Part shown: positions 123-19,798 of the stretch, in pieces
Layout of the letters: the number at the start of each line of letters is the position of its first letter
How positions within the stretch are numbered: the first letter of the stretch is position 1
IMG/VR virus record: IMGVR_UViG_3300028388_003556
Location: 1-24,278 of that record
DNA length: 24,278 nt
DNA from: a virus
Direction: 5' to 3' (one strand)
The notes under the pieces: model-generated
Told to the model about the DNA's origin: nothing
The model's database searches: none
The model's input: the letters and a program-made list of their open reading frames with translations, nothing else
Made by a program: the position numbers and the translations under genes

Positions 123-1100
123 CTAACTCTTTGCGTTAACTTCGTAAGACGTGTTGGTCGACTCGAAGAAGTTGACCAACTGCAGGGTGTCGTTGGCTGT
201 CGCCATCCACTTGGCGGGGTTGCTCACGTTATAGTGAGAACCAAAGCCAAGCTCTTCAAAACGACGGTCAGCCAAGTACTTTACGTACTGGTTGACGTAC
301 TCAGAGTTGAGCCCGAGGATTCCATTCGGGAACATCTCCTTGTTGTACTCACACTCCATCTCGACCGCCTCAGTAATCATGTCGTGCACTTCCTGCACAA
401 ACTCCTCGGTGGCGATTTCGGGGTTTTCCTCGAGCACCGTCAGAATCAAATTAATTCCGAACTTGAGGTGAAGGGACTCGTCACGCACAACCCAGTCAAT
501 CAAGGATGCGTAGTTCCGGAGCAGGTTGCGCTGACGGAAGCTCAGCGCGACCATGAAGCCCGAGTAGAACCAGATGCCCTCCATGATGATGTTGTAAGCA
601 ATGAGGTTGCGAACAAAGTCCTGCTTGCCCTCGATGGTGCTGATGTCGAGGGTGTCCTCGGTCATCCGCTTGATGTACTTGGTCTCAAAGTCCTCTTTGC
701 GCTTGATGGTCTCTGCCTCGATGTGCTGAGCATAAACCTTCTCGCGGTCAACCGGGAAGGTCTCCAGCACGTACTCGAAGCTCATGCAGTGGTTTGCTTC
801 CTCCCACATCTGCTTCGCGAGGTAGAGGTGCGCCTCTGGGGCGTTTACATAAGGGTAGACACCAAAAGCAAGGGCCTTATTTACAATAAGCTCAGAGGGG
901 TTAAAGAAGCTCATGAGGAAGGTTAGAGCGTGCTGCTCCTCCTCGGTCATCTTCTTGAAGTCAGCGATGTCTTCACCCAACTGAATTTCGTTGGGGAACC
1001 AAGTGTTAGCAACAGCCTGGTCGTAGAGGTCCATTGCCCACTGGTAACGCACTGGCTTGAGAAGCAAGCCATCCTGAATACCTGTTCCTAAAATACCCAT
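123..1100 (-). CDS. nrdB: Ribonucleotide reductase class I small (beta) subunit, class Ic-like
   Basis: The 325-residue protein is the radical-generating subunit that lets NrdA reduce ribonucleotides to deoxyribonucleotides, feeding phage DNA synthesis in the cytoplasm. The ferritin-like metal site is visible: E70 (in FFNPSE), E101 and H104 (EANH), E174 (MEG), E208 and H211 (ESLH). Two positions are special. E70 stands where most R2 proteins have Asp, and F108 stands where the radical Tyr lies (H104-CMS-F108). Both substitutions are known from the Chlamydia trachomatis class Ic enzyme, which uses a Mn/Fe cofactor. Length is normal for the family. The start has AGAAGGG upstream. It lies 17 bases after a 27-residue ORF that resembles the end of NrdA. 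No complete nrdA is in the window. Confidence 0.95.
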   Translation of the reverse strand: MGILGTGIQDGLLLKPVRYQWAMDLYDQAVANTWFPNEIQLGEDIADFKKMTEEEQHALTFLMSFFNPSELIVNKALAFGVYPYVNAPEAHLYLAKQMWEEANHCMSFEYVLETFPVDREKVYAQHIEAETIKRKEDFETKYIKRMTEDTLDISTIEGKQDFVRNLIAYNIIMEGIWFYSGFMVALSFRQRNLLRNYASLIDWVVRDESLHLKFGINLILTVLEENPEIATEEFVQEVHDMITEAVEMECEYNKEMFPNGILGLNSEYVNQYVKYLADRRFEELGFGSHYNVSNPAKWMATANDTLQLVNFFESTNTSYEVNAKS

Positions 1101-1117: not shown

Positions 1118-1201
1118 CTACTGGCAACTGTCGCACATCAGTGCTTCCATGGGGTCCATGGGGCACGCATAGCCGTCAATTACATCTACTTCTTCATTCA
1201 T
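1118..1201 (-). CDS. 27-residue ORF resembling the redox-active C-terminal tail of NrdA
   Basis: The frame ends in MCDSCQ, preceded by an acidic stretch and the segment GYACPMDPMEA. Class I large subunits (NrdA) typically end in a CxxC tail such as CEACQ, which passes electrons to the active-site disulfide; I infer that this ORF is a detached copy of that tail. It is immediately upstream of nrdB and co-directional. AAGGAG lies 12 bases before the ATG, which is a long spacing. The frame stays open upstream through the leader but shows no further NrdA sequence or start codon. Alternatives are a remnant left when nrdA was moved, or a free redoxin-like peptide. Confidence 0.55.
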   Translation of the reverse strand: MNEEVDVIDGYACPMDPMEALMCDSCQ

Positions 1202-1248
1202 GGGACGCAAAAACTCCTTAAGTGTGGGGTGGGGTGCTAGAAAAGAGA

Positions 1249-1486: not shown

Positions 1487-2320
1487 ATGCGTAACCGTGA
1501 AATTATTACATCAAAACTAAAAAACGCCGGAGCGGGGTGGACGCTCATCAGTCTCTACATGTTCTTCCCGATGGTTTTTAGCGCAAGCATTCCAGCGCCA
1601 CTCCTGGGAAGTGGTAGTCCAATCGTAGAAGACCGAATAGCCGTAAAAGAAATTGAAAACAGAGAGCCCGGGTTAGGTGGACCAGAAACCGTCGAAGAAG
1701 ACGAAGAAAACATATTCACCATCGAATCCTTTGAAACAAGTGACCCCGCACTAGGCAGACCCCTACAACTCTTCATTACCGGGGGTGAAGAGCCAAAAGT
1801 TTACAGAATTAACTACTTCAACACTGCCGGTGCCAGACTCCCCGTCGACCCCGGGGCAGAAATCTCCAGCGACTACGGATGGCGAACCCCGCCCTGCAAC
1901 GGATGCAGTGCAGACCATCGAGGAGTCGATTTCGTCCCCGGAGAAGGAAAACCCATCTACGCAGTCCTCGACGGAATGGTCATCGAATCAGGATTCCTCG
2001 GAGGCTACGGATATTGGGTAATGCTCGAACACCTCGTCAAAAACCCCGACACTGAAGAAATGGAACGTTGGGAAACCGTCTACGCCCACATGCAAGAAGG
2101 CTCCATCCCCGAAGACGTCGTAATTGGAGCAGTTGTAGAAAAAGGCGATGTCATTGGAAAAGTTGGAAATACTGGTATGTCAACAGGTCCACATCTACAT
2201 TTTGAAATTAGAATCGAAGGAGAAGAAATTGACCCCCTTCCACTCATCTCCTCATACGAAGTAGTTGAAGTAGAACGGGACCAAGAAGGAAACGCGGAAT
2301 ACCGCATCCGATACGAGTAA
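1487..2320 (+). CDS. M23-family metallopeptidase with N-terminal membrane/signal segment
   Basis: The 277-residue protein starts with a basic tip and a hydrophobic stretch (about residues 18-40) that should export or anchor it, followed by an acidic linker (about 60-100). The C-terminal half is a LytM/M23 peptidase domain. Zinc-site motifs are H144-x3-D148 (HRGVD), H201 (YAH) and H236/H238 (HLHFE), so it should cut peptide bridges in peptidoglycan. Two cysteines (137, 140) precede the first histidine. A secreted M23 enzyme in a phage may act on the host wall from outside, or may be a virion or surface protein. The endolysin at 3288-4298 has the same catalytic fold but no export signal. Confidence 0.92.
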   Translation: MRNREIITSKLKNAGAGWTLISLYMFFPMVFSASIPAPLLGSGSPIVEDRIAVKEIENREPGLGGPETVEEDEENIFTIESFETSDPALGRPLQLFITGGEEPKVYRINYFNTAGARLPVDPGAEISSDYGWRTPPCNGCSADHRGVDFVPGEGKPIYAVLDGMVIESGFLGGYGYWVMLEHLVKNPDTEEMERWETVYAHMQEGSIPEDVVIGAVVEKGDVIGKVGNTGMSTGPHLHFEIRIEGEEIDPLPLISSYEVVEVERDQEGNAEYRIRYE

Positions 2321-16829: not shown

Positions 16830-17870
16830 ATGAATGAAAAACTGATTGACCGTTACGCAGAACTTGGTGGCAACACCGAACTGTGGAAAGGGATTGCCGA
16901 AGTTGTCAGCCAAGCAGGTAGCACCTCTGCCTCGCTGGAGCTGAACAGCAAGGTTATCCCCCAAGGGCGCTATGTCGCCCGAGCTTCTGGTGAGGCTCGC
17001 AAAACTCGCAAGCGTGAGCAAGAAGCTAAGAGTGTCGAAGGTATGGCAGGCGATGAATACTTCGAGCGACCCAATGGCGACAAATACTTTGGTCGTCAAT
17101 GGGGCATCCACTCGGACGTGATGACTCTCCGCAAGGCACGCGAAGCAACCTCAAACGCCAACTCTGGTGGAGGCGGGTCGGCAATGTACGCCCTCCTTTA
17201 CGGAGCGCCTGGTACTGGTAAGACTGCTCTCGTGGAAGCCTCGTTCGACAAGGTGTACACCTTGATGGGAACTGGCGACACCGAGGTTTCCGACCTCGTG
17301 GGTGGCTACGTTCAGACCCCCTCGGGAGGTTTCGAGTGGGTGGATGGCGACCTCGTTCGCTCTGCCGAAGAAGGCGCTGTCTACTTTATTGACGAGATTG
17401 GTCTGATTGACCCGAAGGTTCTGTCCATCGTTTACGGACTGATGGATGGTCGCCGAGAGGTAAACATTAGCGCCAACCCAGACCGCGGTACGGTGAAGGC
17501 TCACCCCGACTTTTATGTCATCGGTGCGACCAACCCGAACGCTCCTGGAGTTCGCCTCTCCGAGGCTTTGCTCTCTAGGTTCACTCTCCAAGCTGAGATG
17601 ACCACCGACTGGTCGTTGGCTCGAAAGCTGGGAGTTCCGACCACGATGGTCACCGCCTCACAAAACCTCGCCAAGAAGCAGGTTGCTGGGGAGACCTCGT
17701 GGGCACCGCAGATGCGAGAGCTGATTGCTTTCCGCGACATCGCGGAAACCTTTGGCACCACCTTTGCGATTGCCAACCTCCTTGCCAGCGCCCCCGAGAT
17801 TGACCGACCAGTTGTGTCGGACGTTCTCACTCGGGCATACGGTGAGGAATGTAAGCCAGCGAAAATCTAA
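16830..17870 (+). CDS. MoxR-like AAA+ ATPase
   Basis: The 346-residue protein has Walker A GAPGTGKT (125-132), Walker B YFIDE (185-189), sensor 1 N235 (GATNPN) and an arginine finger near R250 (LLSRF). This is the MoxR/CobS-like branch, ATP-driven remodelling chaperones that act with VWA-domain partners. The first 100 residues are a charged helical region. A GGGGS-like linker precedes the ATPase core. The next large gene encodes a VWA protein, the expected partner. Candidate roles are remodelling a phage or host complex or metal insertion; nothing in the sequence names the target. Confidence 0.93.
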   Translation: MNEKLIDRYAELGGNTELWKGIAEVVSQAGSTSASLELNSKVIPQGRYVARASGEARKTRKREQEAKSVEGMAGDEYFERPNGDKYFGRQWGIHSDVMTLRKAREATSNANSGGGGSAMYALLYGAPGTGKTALVEASFDKVYTLMGTGDTEVSDLVGGYVQTPSGGFEWVDGDLVRSAEEGAVYFIDEIGLIDPKVLSIVYGLMDGRREVNISANPDRGTVKAHPDFYVIGATNPNAPGVRLSEALLSRFTLQAEMTTDWSLARKLGVPTTMVTASQNLAKKQVAGETSWAPQMRELIAFRDIAETFGTTFAIANLLASAPEIDRPVVSDVLTRAYGEECKPAKI

Positions 17871-17894
17871 GCTTCCCTGTCTTAGGTTTCGCTC

Positions 17895-17932
17895 GGGGAG
17901 GGGGTTTGAGAAAGGGTGTCTCCCCCCTCCCC
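17895..17932 (+). terminator. GC-rich hairpin after the MoxR gene
   Basis: GGGGAGGGGG and CCCCCTCCCC form a 10-bp stem with an 18-base loop. There is no T-run, and the next promoter starts nine bases later. Confidence 0.6.
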
Positions 17933-17940
17933 ACCCCAAC

Positions 17941-17969
17941 TTGACACCCGATTGTTTATATAATAAACT
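17941..17969 (+). promoter_or_regulatory. Promoter for the VWA gene
   Basis: TTGACA, a 17-base spacer and TAAACT. CAGA-TAG-TCTG (17970-17980) forms a dyad centred on the predicted start. Confidence 0.75.
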
Positions 17970-18016
17970 CAGATAGTCTGCTGGACACAGACACCAAAAA
18001 ACGAAAGGACAAGAAG

Positions 18017-19798
18017 ATGGCACACATCAAAAACTCAAATGAAAGAGCAGAAGCAACAGCTCCCGAGTGGCTACCGCTGGGTCGCCAGATTGGCGAACTC
18101 GCTAACAAGTGGTCAGGACGTTATGACCTCGTGGGCTACGTCGGAGAAAATGCCGGTCACGGCGCTCCCGCTTGCTACAACCCAGCGCTCGCAGAAATCG
18201 AAGTAGACGTTGCCCGTGCCTTTGGCGCAGGTATCAAGCCAGAGATGATTGGCGACCTCAGCGAACGAGCCACCCAATACGAGTTCCCCAAGGCGATTGG
18301 CGCTCTGTACCACGAAGCTTTTCACGCTTGCTTTTCCGAGTGGAATATGCCCAAAGCATCCTCCGACCTCAACAACCAAGAGTACGATGCTCTGGTCTTA
18401 CTGGAAGAGAGTCGCATCGAAGCGCAAGGACTGCTCGCCAAACCCCGAGCCAAGTCTTTCCTCCGAGCCTCCGCGATGGAGCTGGTCGTTGCCGACTCCG
18501 CCGAAAGCTTCGGGCAGATGCCAGACACCAAGAAAGCAGGGATGCTGGTCGGACTCATCCACTCCCGAGTCGAAGCTGGCATCCTCGATGCTGAAGAAGT
18601 TGCCGAAGTGCTCGACCTCACGGAGTCTTTCCTTGGTGCCGACACAATCACAAAACTTTTAGAAGTTGCGGATAAGTTTCGAGCACACGAAGACCACGCC
18701 AACGCTGACCCCGTTCTCTACGACCTCGCCCGAGAGTGGGTTCGTATTCTCCAAGAGAAGGCAGAAGAGAATGGCGAAAGTCTCGATGCTCAACCTGGTG
18801 ATGGAGAAGGCGAAGGAGAGCCCTCCGAGTTCTCCGAAGCTGTCCAAGATGCTTTGGAGGAAGTTGCCCGAGCTGTTCAGGTTTCAGCTCAGGGCGACCT
18901 TGACGACCAAGAGCAGAAAGAGGATTGGCAAGAGCAGGTCGAAGAAAAAGCCAGCAAGGCGAAAGAAAATCAAATCAACGCAGACACCGCCAAGAAGGTG
19001 TTTGCTCGTGGCTCGGGTGGCACGGGTAAGTCCTCCACTCGACTCCGCGAGCGCCGACTGCCTACGAGCAAAGAACGCCAAGCCTCGGTGACGATTGCGA
19101 AGTGGCTGGAGCGAGCGAAGTACCGTGACCGCGACGTGACGGAGATTGACAGCGAGACCCCTCCTGGTCGCCTCCGCACCCGAGCTGTCGTCCAAGCTAA
19201 GGCGATGGAGGAACGCGGTGTTCGAGAACGAGTCGCTCCGTTCCGCAAGAAGGTTCGCAAGATGACCGACGACCCCACCCTCTCGGTGGGCGTGATGGTG
19301 GATATCAGCGGTTCGATGATGGGCGCGATGGAGCCGATGGCAACCACAGCGTGGGTTATGTCCGAGGCTGTCCGACGAGTCCAAGGCAGGACGGCGATGG
19401 TCTACTACGGCAACGAGGTCTTCCCGACTCTCAAGCCTGGTCAGCACCTCGACCAAGTGAATGTATGGGAAGCCACCGACGGCTGGGAGGCGTTCGATGA
19501 AGCGTTCCGAGCGCTGGACGGCTCTCTGAACTTGCTCAATGGCACGGGGGCACGCTTGCTCGTCGTGACTAGTGACGGGGCGTACCGTAGCAAGGAGGAG
19601 GAGCGCTCCCGATACTGGGTGAAGCGCTGTGTCGAAGCTGGTGTCGCGGTGCTTTGGCTACCGTTCGACCACGGGGGCTATGCCCGAGGCGTAGAGCGTG
19701 CTGGAGCACGAGTTCTCGCTGGAGTGCTTGACCCCGCAGACTCGGCGCTGGAGATTGGCAAGGAAGCCTCTCGGGTGCTGACAAGCGTGGGGCGGTAA
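18017..19798 (+). CDS. HExxH metallopeptidase-like plus VWA protein, partner of the MoxR ATPase
   Basis: The 593-residue protein has HEAFH at 99-103 with a downstream acidic helix LLEESRIE (128-135) that could give the third zinc ligand, as in DUF2201-type putative metallopeptidases. An acidic, Gly/Glu/Gln-rich linker (about 250-320) follows, then a VWA domain at about 420-593 with the metal-ion-dependent adhesion motif DISGS (429-433), and a later T510 and D520 at the positions expected for the rest of the site. MoxR ATPases are known to work with VWA proteins. Whether the peptidase-like site is active is unknown. ACGAAAGGA precedes the ATG. Confidence 0.9.
   Translation: MAHIKNSNERAEATAPEWLPLGRQIGELANKWSGRYDLVGYVGENAGHGAPACYNPALAEIEVDVARAFGAGIKPEMIGDLSERATQYEFPKAIGALYHEAFHACFSEWNMPKASSDLNNQEYDALVLLEESRIEAQGLLAKPRAKSFLRASAMELVVADSAESFGQMPDTKKAGMLVGLIHSRVEAGILDAEEVAEVLDLTESFLGADTITKLLEVADKFRAHEDHANADPVLYDLAREWVRILQEKAEENGESLDAQPGDGEGEGEPSEFSEAVQDALEEVARAVQVSAQGDLDDQEQKEDWQEQVEEKASKAKENQINADTAKKVFARGSGGTGKSSTRLRERRLPTSKERQASVTIAKWLERAKYRDRDVTEIDSETPPGRLRTRAVVQAKAMEERGVRERVAPFRKKVRKMTDDPTLSVGVMVDISGSMMGAMEPMATTAWVMSEAVRRVQGRTAMVYYGNEVFPTLKPGQHLDQVNVWEATDGWEAFDEAFRALDGSLNLLNGTGARLLVVTSDGAYRSKEEERSRYWVKRCVEAGVAVLWLPFDHGGYARGVERAGARVLAGVLDPADSALEIGKEASRVLTSVGR

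Follow-up and report, generated by a model that had tools for sequence, protein, structure and literature searches.

Introduction

Each turnover of a ribonucleotide reductase (RNR) oxidises a pair of active-site cysteines (C229 and C458 in the NrdA proteins considered here), and cysteines at the C-terminus of NrdA relay electrons from thioredoxin or glutaredoxin. In Pseudomonas aeruginosa, a class II, B12-dependent RNR consists of two polypeptides encoded in one operon, NrdJa and NrdJb, the latter with 229 residues, and this split NrdJ has been called the sole split RNR of a non-viral organism (PMC4520616). In its accessible part, a survey of RNR extensions mentions only the class II split (PMC9669993). 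In Aeromonas phage Aeh1, an inserted element divides nrdA into two coding regions, nrdA-a and nrdA-b, and the accessible part of the report, which discusses split phage RNR genes, describes no free tail peptide (PMC3653736). Here we analyze a 27-residue open reading frame (ORF) that ends like the redox tail of a class I NrdA and precedes nrdB on a stretch of viral DNA of 24,278 nucleotides (IMG/VR record IMGVR_UViG_3300028388_003556; hereafter the window), which is a linear virus contig and probably a partial one. An original prediction, made from the letters of this DNA, had regarded the ORF either as a free redox tail acting in trans or as the trace of a rearranged nrdA, and knew of no described stand-alone tail; our own search of the open-access literature, which leaves most subscription journals outside, likewise turned up no paper on a class I tail that stands alone. 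Very probably, the ORF encodes the redox part of a class I RNR as a subunit of its own, which was split from the NrdA C-terminus by gene fission. Two results go beyond the original prediction: the split is a bacterial trait, and tails are also mobile on their own, with no RNR gene accompanying them.

Results

The tail ORF in the window and in related phages

The tail ORF starts with ATG and comprises 27 codons followed by TAG, its stop lying 17 nt ahead of the nrdB ATG (Table 1). A profile built from 22 tails, the window tail itself among them, matches it with the E value given in Table 1, and the motif DP..C[DE].CQ-stop did not occur in any of 300 Markov-resampled windows. Together with homologous ORFs in many relatives, these results indicate that the ORF did not arise by chance, so that the ORF with a CxxC tail end which had been predicted ahead of nrdB is real. 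The predicted absence of the remainder of nrdA was borne out as well, as a search of the whole 24,278-bp record for the alpha subunit (PF02867) found none. Searches of the 27-residue peptide against Pfam, NCBIfam and PHROGs returned no family, and the phage and Microbacteriaceae tail peptides match no family of these collections either.

Relatives of the window nrdB were found at 31 IMG/VR loci, most of them with 80-92% identity, and the 22-tail profile detected a tail in 23 of the 33 phage contigs including the window (E 1e-13 to 1e-17). The same ORF is therefore present in related phages, where the original prediction had proposed to look for it. Its position differs among them: the tail directly precedes nrdB in L001-L005, with its stop overlapping the nrdB ATG, lies 71-82 bp before nrdB in L008 and L014, about 1.04 kb before it in L011, L012, L028 and L030, and 3.4 kb before it in L025 and L027, and is located after nrdB in L007, L015, L016 and L019. 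A position that varies while the sequence stays constant is the behaviour of a real gene. Between tail gene and nrdA, L032 (which corresponds to L027) has a LAGLIDADG_3-like ORF at 2-799, and frames with a comparable ending, NGIL or NGML close to the C-terminus, are situated between tail gene and nrdB in L011, L012, L028 and L030. L023 (7082-7264) and likewise L024 represent a phage type that is more distant; here a tail-like ORF is found 3' of nrdB, and its N-terminal part is long and charged (MPEELTQEQIEQNKEESLRN...CDSCQ).

A whole nrdA is present in three phages (L027/L032, L025/L033 and L136). The encoded proteins end in ...YYLHMKPRHTAEQSTVKVNKTEQISTNDTAGAPKKGFGFAVAKN in L027/L032 and in ...GAPRKGFGFKSAN in L025/L033, in both cases without cysteines, and the tail ORF is situated upstream of nrdA; L136 shows the same order and its NrdA is likewise tail-less. 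An nrdA elsewhere in the genome that lacks the CxxC tail, another expectation attached to the original prediction, thus exists in these phages. When 32 phage records of up to 120 kb were searched with PF02867 and phage NrdA protein queries, no more than four gave an nrdA, and that of G006 is a 24-residue fragment; as the records are fragments, the absence from the others is only suggestive. A PF02867 match in G005 (3e-4) was discarded as spurious, since the frame ends unlike NrdA and the phage NrdA query was negative. In L033 (760-4170; phage contig G025), the NrdA frame amounts to 1136 residues and matches phage NrdA in separate blocks (residues 2-445 and residues 441-802). The separation of these blocks by about 920 nt points to an intein-like insert, which adjoins the radical cysteine C443.

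The detached tail in bacteria

Loci holding the nearest bacterial nrdB, 80 in number and mostly from Microbacteriaceae and Saccharibacteria, were fetched. In nearly all complete loci the gene order is tail-less nrdA, small tail ORF and nrdB, and the separate tail genes encode 21-58 residues. Across all loci read, no cysteine follows the Tyr-Tyr pair in any of 83 detached-type NrdA, and two to four do so in each of 44 fused NrdA. C229, C458, C443, N441, E445, Y761 and Y762 (P0001 numbering) are invariant across a 27-row NrdA alignment, and the active-site cysteine pair, the radical cysteine and the Tyr-Tyr pair are invariant in detached and fused NrdA alike. The same alignment places the fission point between the GFG motif and the tail. 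In a structural model of NrdA, the C-terminal stub 767-804 is disordered. Detached tails end in (V/I/C)PxDPM(D/E)xLxC(D/E)SCQ, and D, P, C, C and Q are invariant when detached and fused tails are aligned. The tails of Saccharibacteria (57-58 residues) possess a conserved N-terminal segment, EKLAAIDxAM, for which a helix of residues 13-37 is predicted (block predicted local distance difference test score, pLDDT, 83-88). This N-terminal segment is not present in fused tails, as would be expected for an independent protein. The system of tail and tail-less NrdA is bacterial in origin and a trait of Microbacteriaceae and Saccharibacteria.

The tail might still be joined to NrdA by programmed frameshifting, stop read-through or trans-splicing, in which case no free peptide would be formed, and in line with such a joining, the nrdA stop is closely followed by the tail in the same relative frame at 64 of 76 bacterial loci. 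However, the remaining 12 loci use the other two frames. Most tail starts in Microbacteriaceae overlap the nrdA stop or come closely after it, and in Saccharibacteria the tails begin 23-84 nt past the nrdA stop, in all three frames. Most tail ORFs possess a separate start and a Shine-Dalgarno (SD)-like site before it, no split-intein sequence precedes the tail, and the gene order of phages, with the tail upstream of nrdA (L027, L025, L136) or apart from it, contradicts a joining of the two products, which we therefore regard as extremely improbable.

Eight of nine host genomes have a single PF02867 alpha subunit, a tail-less one, and the ninth, G041, has two; class III NrdD was found in none of the nine. 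If the assemblies are complete, the tail-less enzyme is the only RNR of its host, and there must be some means by which its active site is reduced. For this role, the conserved CxxC peptide encoded next to it is the obvious candidate, and the finding of a sole RNR in eight of the nine genomes makes it probable that the tail acts in trans. Alternatively, tail-less NrdA could be reduced directly by glutaredoxin or thioredoxin, the tail ORF being incidental. Small dithiols such as dithiothreitol do reduce RNR active sites without a tail, and the split class II enzyme showed low activity in the absence of NrdJb (PMC4520616). We consider this reading highly unlikely, since the tail ORF is strongly conserved and retained in the detached genomes read, and since the redox subunit of the class II analogue is essential in vivo (PMC4520616).

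All 17 detached-tail Microbacteriaceae genomes searched contain two or more tail genes. Five fused-tail genomes contain only the fused tail, and Saccharibacteria contain one tail. A second chromosomal tail gene of Microbacteriaceae (L287, L290, L299 and further loci) occupies a recurrent site upstream of FAS1-like/MaoC dehydratase genes and murB.

Fused relatives and repeated detachment

The tail has remained fused in other members of the order, in one further actinomycete and in some Patescibacteria, and examples of fused tails in close relatives are ...VDGVACPVDPMERLQCESCQ and ...KACPIDPQERLQCDSCQ. A tree of 61 NrdA sequences, a quick tree with support from the Shimodaira-Hasegawa-like approximate likelihood ratio test only and without an inferred root, contains three changes between fused and detached states, counted among 60 NrdA: the Microbacteriaceae clade (support 99), the Saccharibacteria clade (support 100) and L129, which is nested among fused Patescibacteria. 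As the tree is unrooted, one refusion could replace two detachments for the first two clades; detachment probably occurred several times. In L116 and L129 the tail is placed after nrdB. L134 encodes a further tail-less NrdA, with a candidate tail about 66 kb away.

Selection on the tail ORFs

The ratio of nonsynonymous to synonymous differences per site (pN/pS) of tail ORFs was determined for loci picked by nrdB and not by the tail. In the tail frame it amounted to 0.28 for Microbacteriaceae, 0.23 for Saccharibacteria and 0.34 for phages, and in the other two frames to 1.4-2.3. Purifying selection acts on the tail ORFs in their own frame and in neither of the other two. In a larger viral set most tail starts are preceded by an SD-like site; this set was picked by tail similarity, and its conservation is therefore partly a search artefact.

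These values bear on whether the ORF is a non-functional leftover of a rearranged nrdA, or an attachment-site fragment with which mobile elements rebuild a host gene, as its shortness and its location at the junction with nrdB in the window might suggest. Such an origin is scarcely credible in view of the selection in one frame, the pS values of 0.58-0.78 between tail copies, which mean that synonymous sites are near saturation, and the complete ORFs with starts. Moreover, no NrdA coding sequence lies upstream of the tail, and no integrase is among the identified recurrent neighbours of phage tails. Of the two possibilities raised by the original prediction, a trace of a rearranged nrdA does not fit purifying selection and intact recurrence in hundreds of contigs, whereas a free redox tail acting in trans does fit.

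Tails on phages and plasmids without RNR genes

A profile scan of IMG/VR yielded about 300 contigs with relatives of the tail. Among the best 80 of these, all are small ORFs and 75 have no nrdA or nrdB within about 6 kb. When 32 tail-only contigs (11-75 kb) were searched over their whole length for PF02867 and PF00268, neither was found. Recurrent neighbours of phage tail genes are M23 endolysin, r1t-type holin, WhiB and YqaJ. The complete, circular 31-kb genome of Pontimonas phage phiPsal1 contains an unannotated tail ORF, whose ATG overlaps the stop of the holin gene, and no nrd gene is listed in 28.7 kb of this genome. In Pseudanabaena phage Pan2 the tail is a hypothetical protein of 27 residues. 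Plasmids of Leifsonia and Gryllotalpicola carry a tail gene, and Clavibacter plasmids are also among the matches of the tail search. The named hosts all belong to the Microbacteriaceae, the detached-tail family, except for that of Pan2 and one weak Rhizobium match. On plasmid NZ_CP065038.1 (L285, 3983-4084), the 33-residue tail peptide bears the public name 'ribonucleotide-diphosphate reductase subunit beta' (WP_223361114.1), which is misleading and may spread. Contig IMGVR_UViG_3300043469_000360 (48.9 kb; L212 and L218) has two slightly different tail genes near its ends.

The reading that fits best is that the detached redox subunit of a class I RNR has become mobile cargo. On balance, we favour the view that phages and plasmids without RNR subunits bring nothing of an RNR but a tail of 24-35 residues, with which they serve, boost or re-wire the host's tail-less RNR while they replicate. 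The copies on such elements might instead have another role, in lysis or anti-defence, as a general dithiol shuttle, or as a decoy that slows the RNR of the host, even if the bacterial tail is a redox subunit. The large share of viral tail loci without a nearby RNR gene would agree with this, as would the location of many tails near lysis genes, most closely in phiPsal1. However, small cargo genes commonly sit beside lysis genes, and phage tails share the motif DPM(D/E)xLxC(D/E)SCQ with the RNR tails of the hosts, so that we judge another role to be unlikely.

NrdB and other features of the window

The solved structures closest to the window NrdB are those of the class Ic R2 protein of Chlamydia trachomatis (1syy, 4d8f). 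When aligned with the chlamydial protein, the window NrdB has Phe108 at the position of the radical tyrosine and Glu70 as first metal ligand, and it thus displays the sequence signature of class Ic. Judging from these residues, the RNR of Microbacteriaceae, Saccharibacteria and their phage counterparts probably works without a tyrosyl radical. A search of named phages with the NrdB protein gave only relatives of less than 60% identity, and in a tree phage NrdB are mostly placed within the part formed by Microbacteriaceae.

The features around the tail ORF are compiled in Table 1. Elsewhere in the window, an r1t-type holin (PF16945; 9287-9496) belongs to a family that is also found near tail-only genes of other phages, and at 16830-19798 a MoxR-like AAA ATPase (AAA_5) is followed by a VWA/CoxE-like protein, a pair that is unusual for a phage.

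Table 1. Tail ORF, nrdB and adjoining features of the window.
Feature	Position	Strand	Basis
Stand-alone NrdA-type redox tail ORF, 27 residues, MNEEVDVIDGYACPMDPMEALMCDSCQ	1118..1201	-	Profile match (E=2.8e-17), relatives, selection
Codons of the CDSC (CxxC) redox motif, tail residues 23-26	1124..1135	-	Direct reading; cysteine pair invariant in alignments
Probable ribosome-binding site (AAGGAG), 12 nt ahead of the tail ATG	1214..1219	-	Sequence reading
nrdB, class I RNR beta subunit, 325 residues, ATG at 1100	123..1100	-	PF00268, E=1.5e-76
M23 peptidase (endolysin-like), borders the tail-nrdB pair, no nrdA between	1487..2320	+	Family match

Discussion

The tail peptide is probably translated and probably acts in trans on tail-less NrdA, as far as can be judged from sequence. 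In such a mechanism, the free peptide would approach the active site of tail-less NrdA, reduce the turnover disulfide by thiol-disulfide exchange and then be re-reduced by thioredoxin or a glutaredoxin-like protein. NrdB and tail of the phage would serve either a phage NrdA encoded elsewhere in its genome or the tail-less NrdA of a Microbacteriaceae-type host. That phages with tail and nrdB, in which no nrdA was seen, use the NrdA of the host is attractive but unproved. Phages may carry tails because the peptide is limiting, or because the reductant available in the infected cell acts better on their tails.

Some observations speak against a free redox subunit. An nrdA of the window phage was not found in its contig. 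The profile found no tail in 10 of the 33 phage contigs. Several of these ten are short or truncated close to nrdB, and G023 and G024 hold a more divergent tail-like ORF. Finally, the NrdA model has a middling mean pLDDT of 68, with no visible docking site.

How the tail reaches the active site and whether a tether is needed are classical questions of RNR research. Nature has apparently made this cut on several occasions, in organisms for which no other RNR was found, and the parts can be separated for titration, swapping and labelling. To our knowledge, the tail would be the smallest RNR subunit. It would also exemplify gene fission that recurred at a single point, and a cargo gene of a new type in phages and plasmids. 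Tail genes are an annotation blind spot, as the phage and Microbacteriaceae peptides match no Pfam, NCBIfam or PHROGs family, the tail of phiPsal1 remained unannotated and one plasmid copy was misnamed.

Compared with the swinging tail of class I NrdA/NrdE, the peptide has the same C-terminal CxxC and the same sequence as the fused tails of its nearest relatives, but it has a gene and a start of its own and is not part of an NrdA polypeptide. The class Ic NrdB of Chlamydia trachomatis resembles the window NrdB in its Phe and Glu residues, a likeness that concerns the beta subunit only. In NrdB-glutaredoxin fusions redox parts are also rearranged among RNR polypeptides; however, there a redox domain was gained by fusion, whereas here one was released (PMC3019208). 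Phage Aeh1 likewise has a class I nrdA in pieces (PMC3653736). Its split is internal and due to an inserted element, unlike the cut beyond the GFG motif seen here; the gaps between bacterial nrdA and tail are too short for an inserted element, and a LAGLIDADG-like ORF lies between tail and nrdA only in phages such as L027, where the tail is upstream. With NrdJa/NrdJb the present system shares a catalytic subunit without redox cysteines, a second polypeptide for thiol-disulfide exchange and the placement of both genes in a single operon. A split class II enzyme is B12-dependent and has no beta subunit, whereas the NrdA studied here has an ATP-cone, is encoded together with NrdB and belongs to class I; further differences are the tail size of 21-58 residues, the several detachments and the mobile copies. 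For a redox subunit on a polypeptide of its own, the split class II RNR of Pseudomonas is a tested precedent (PMC4520616).
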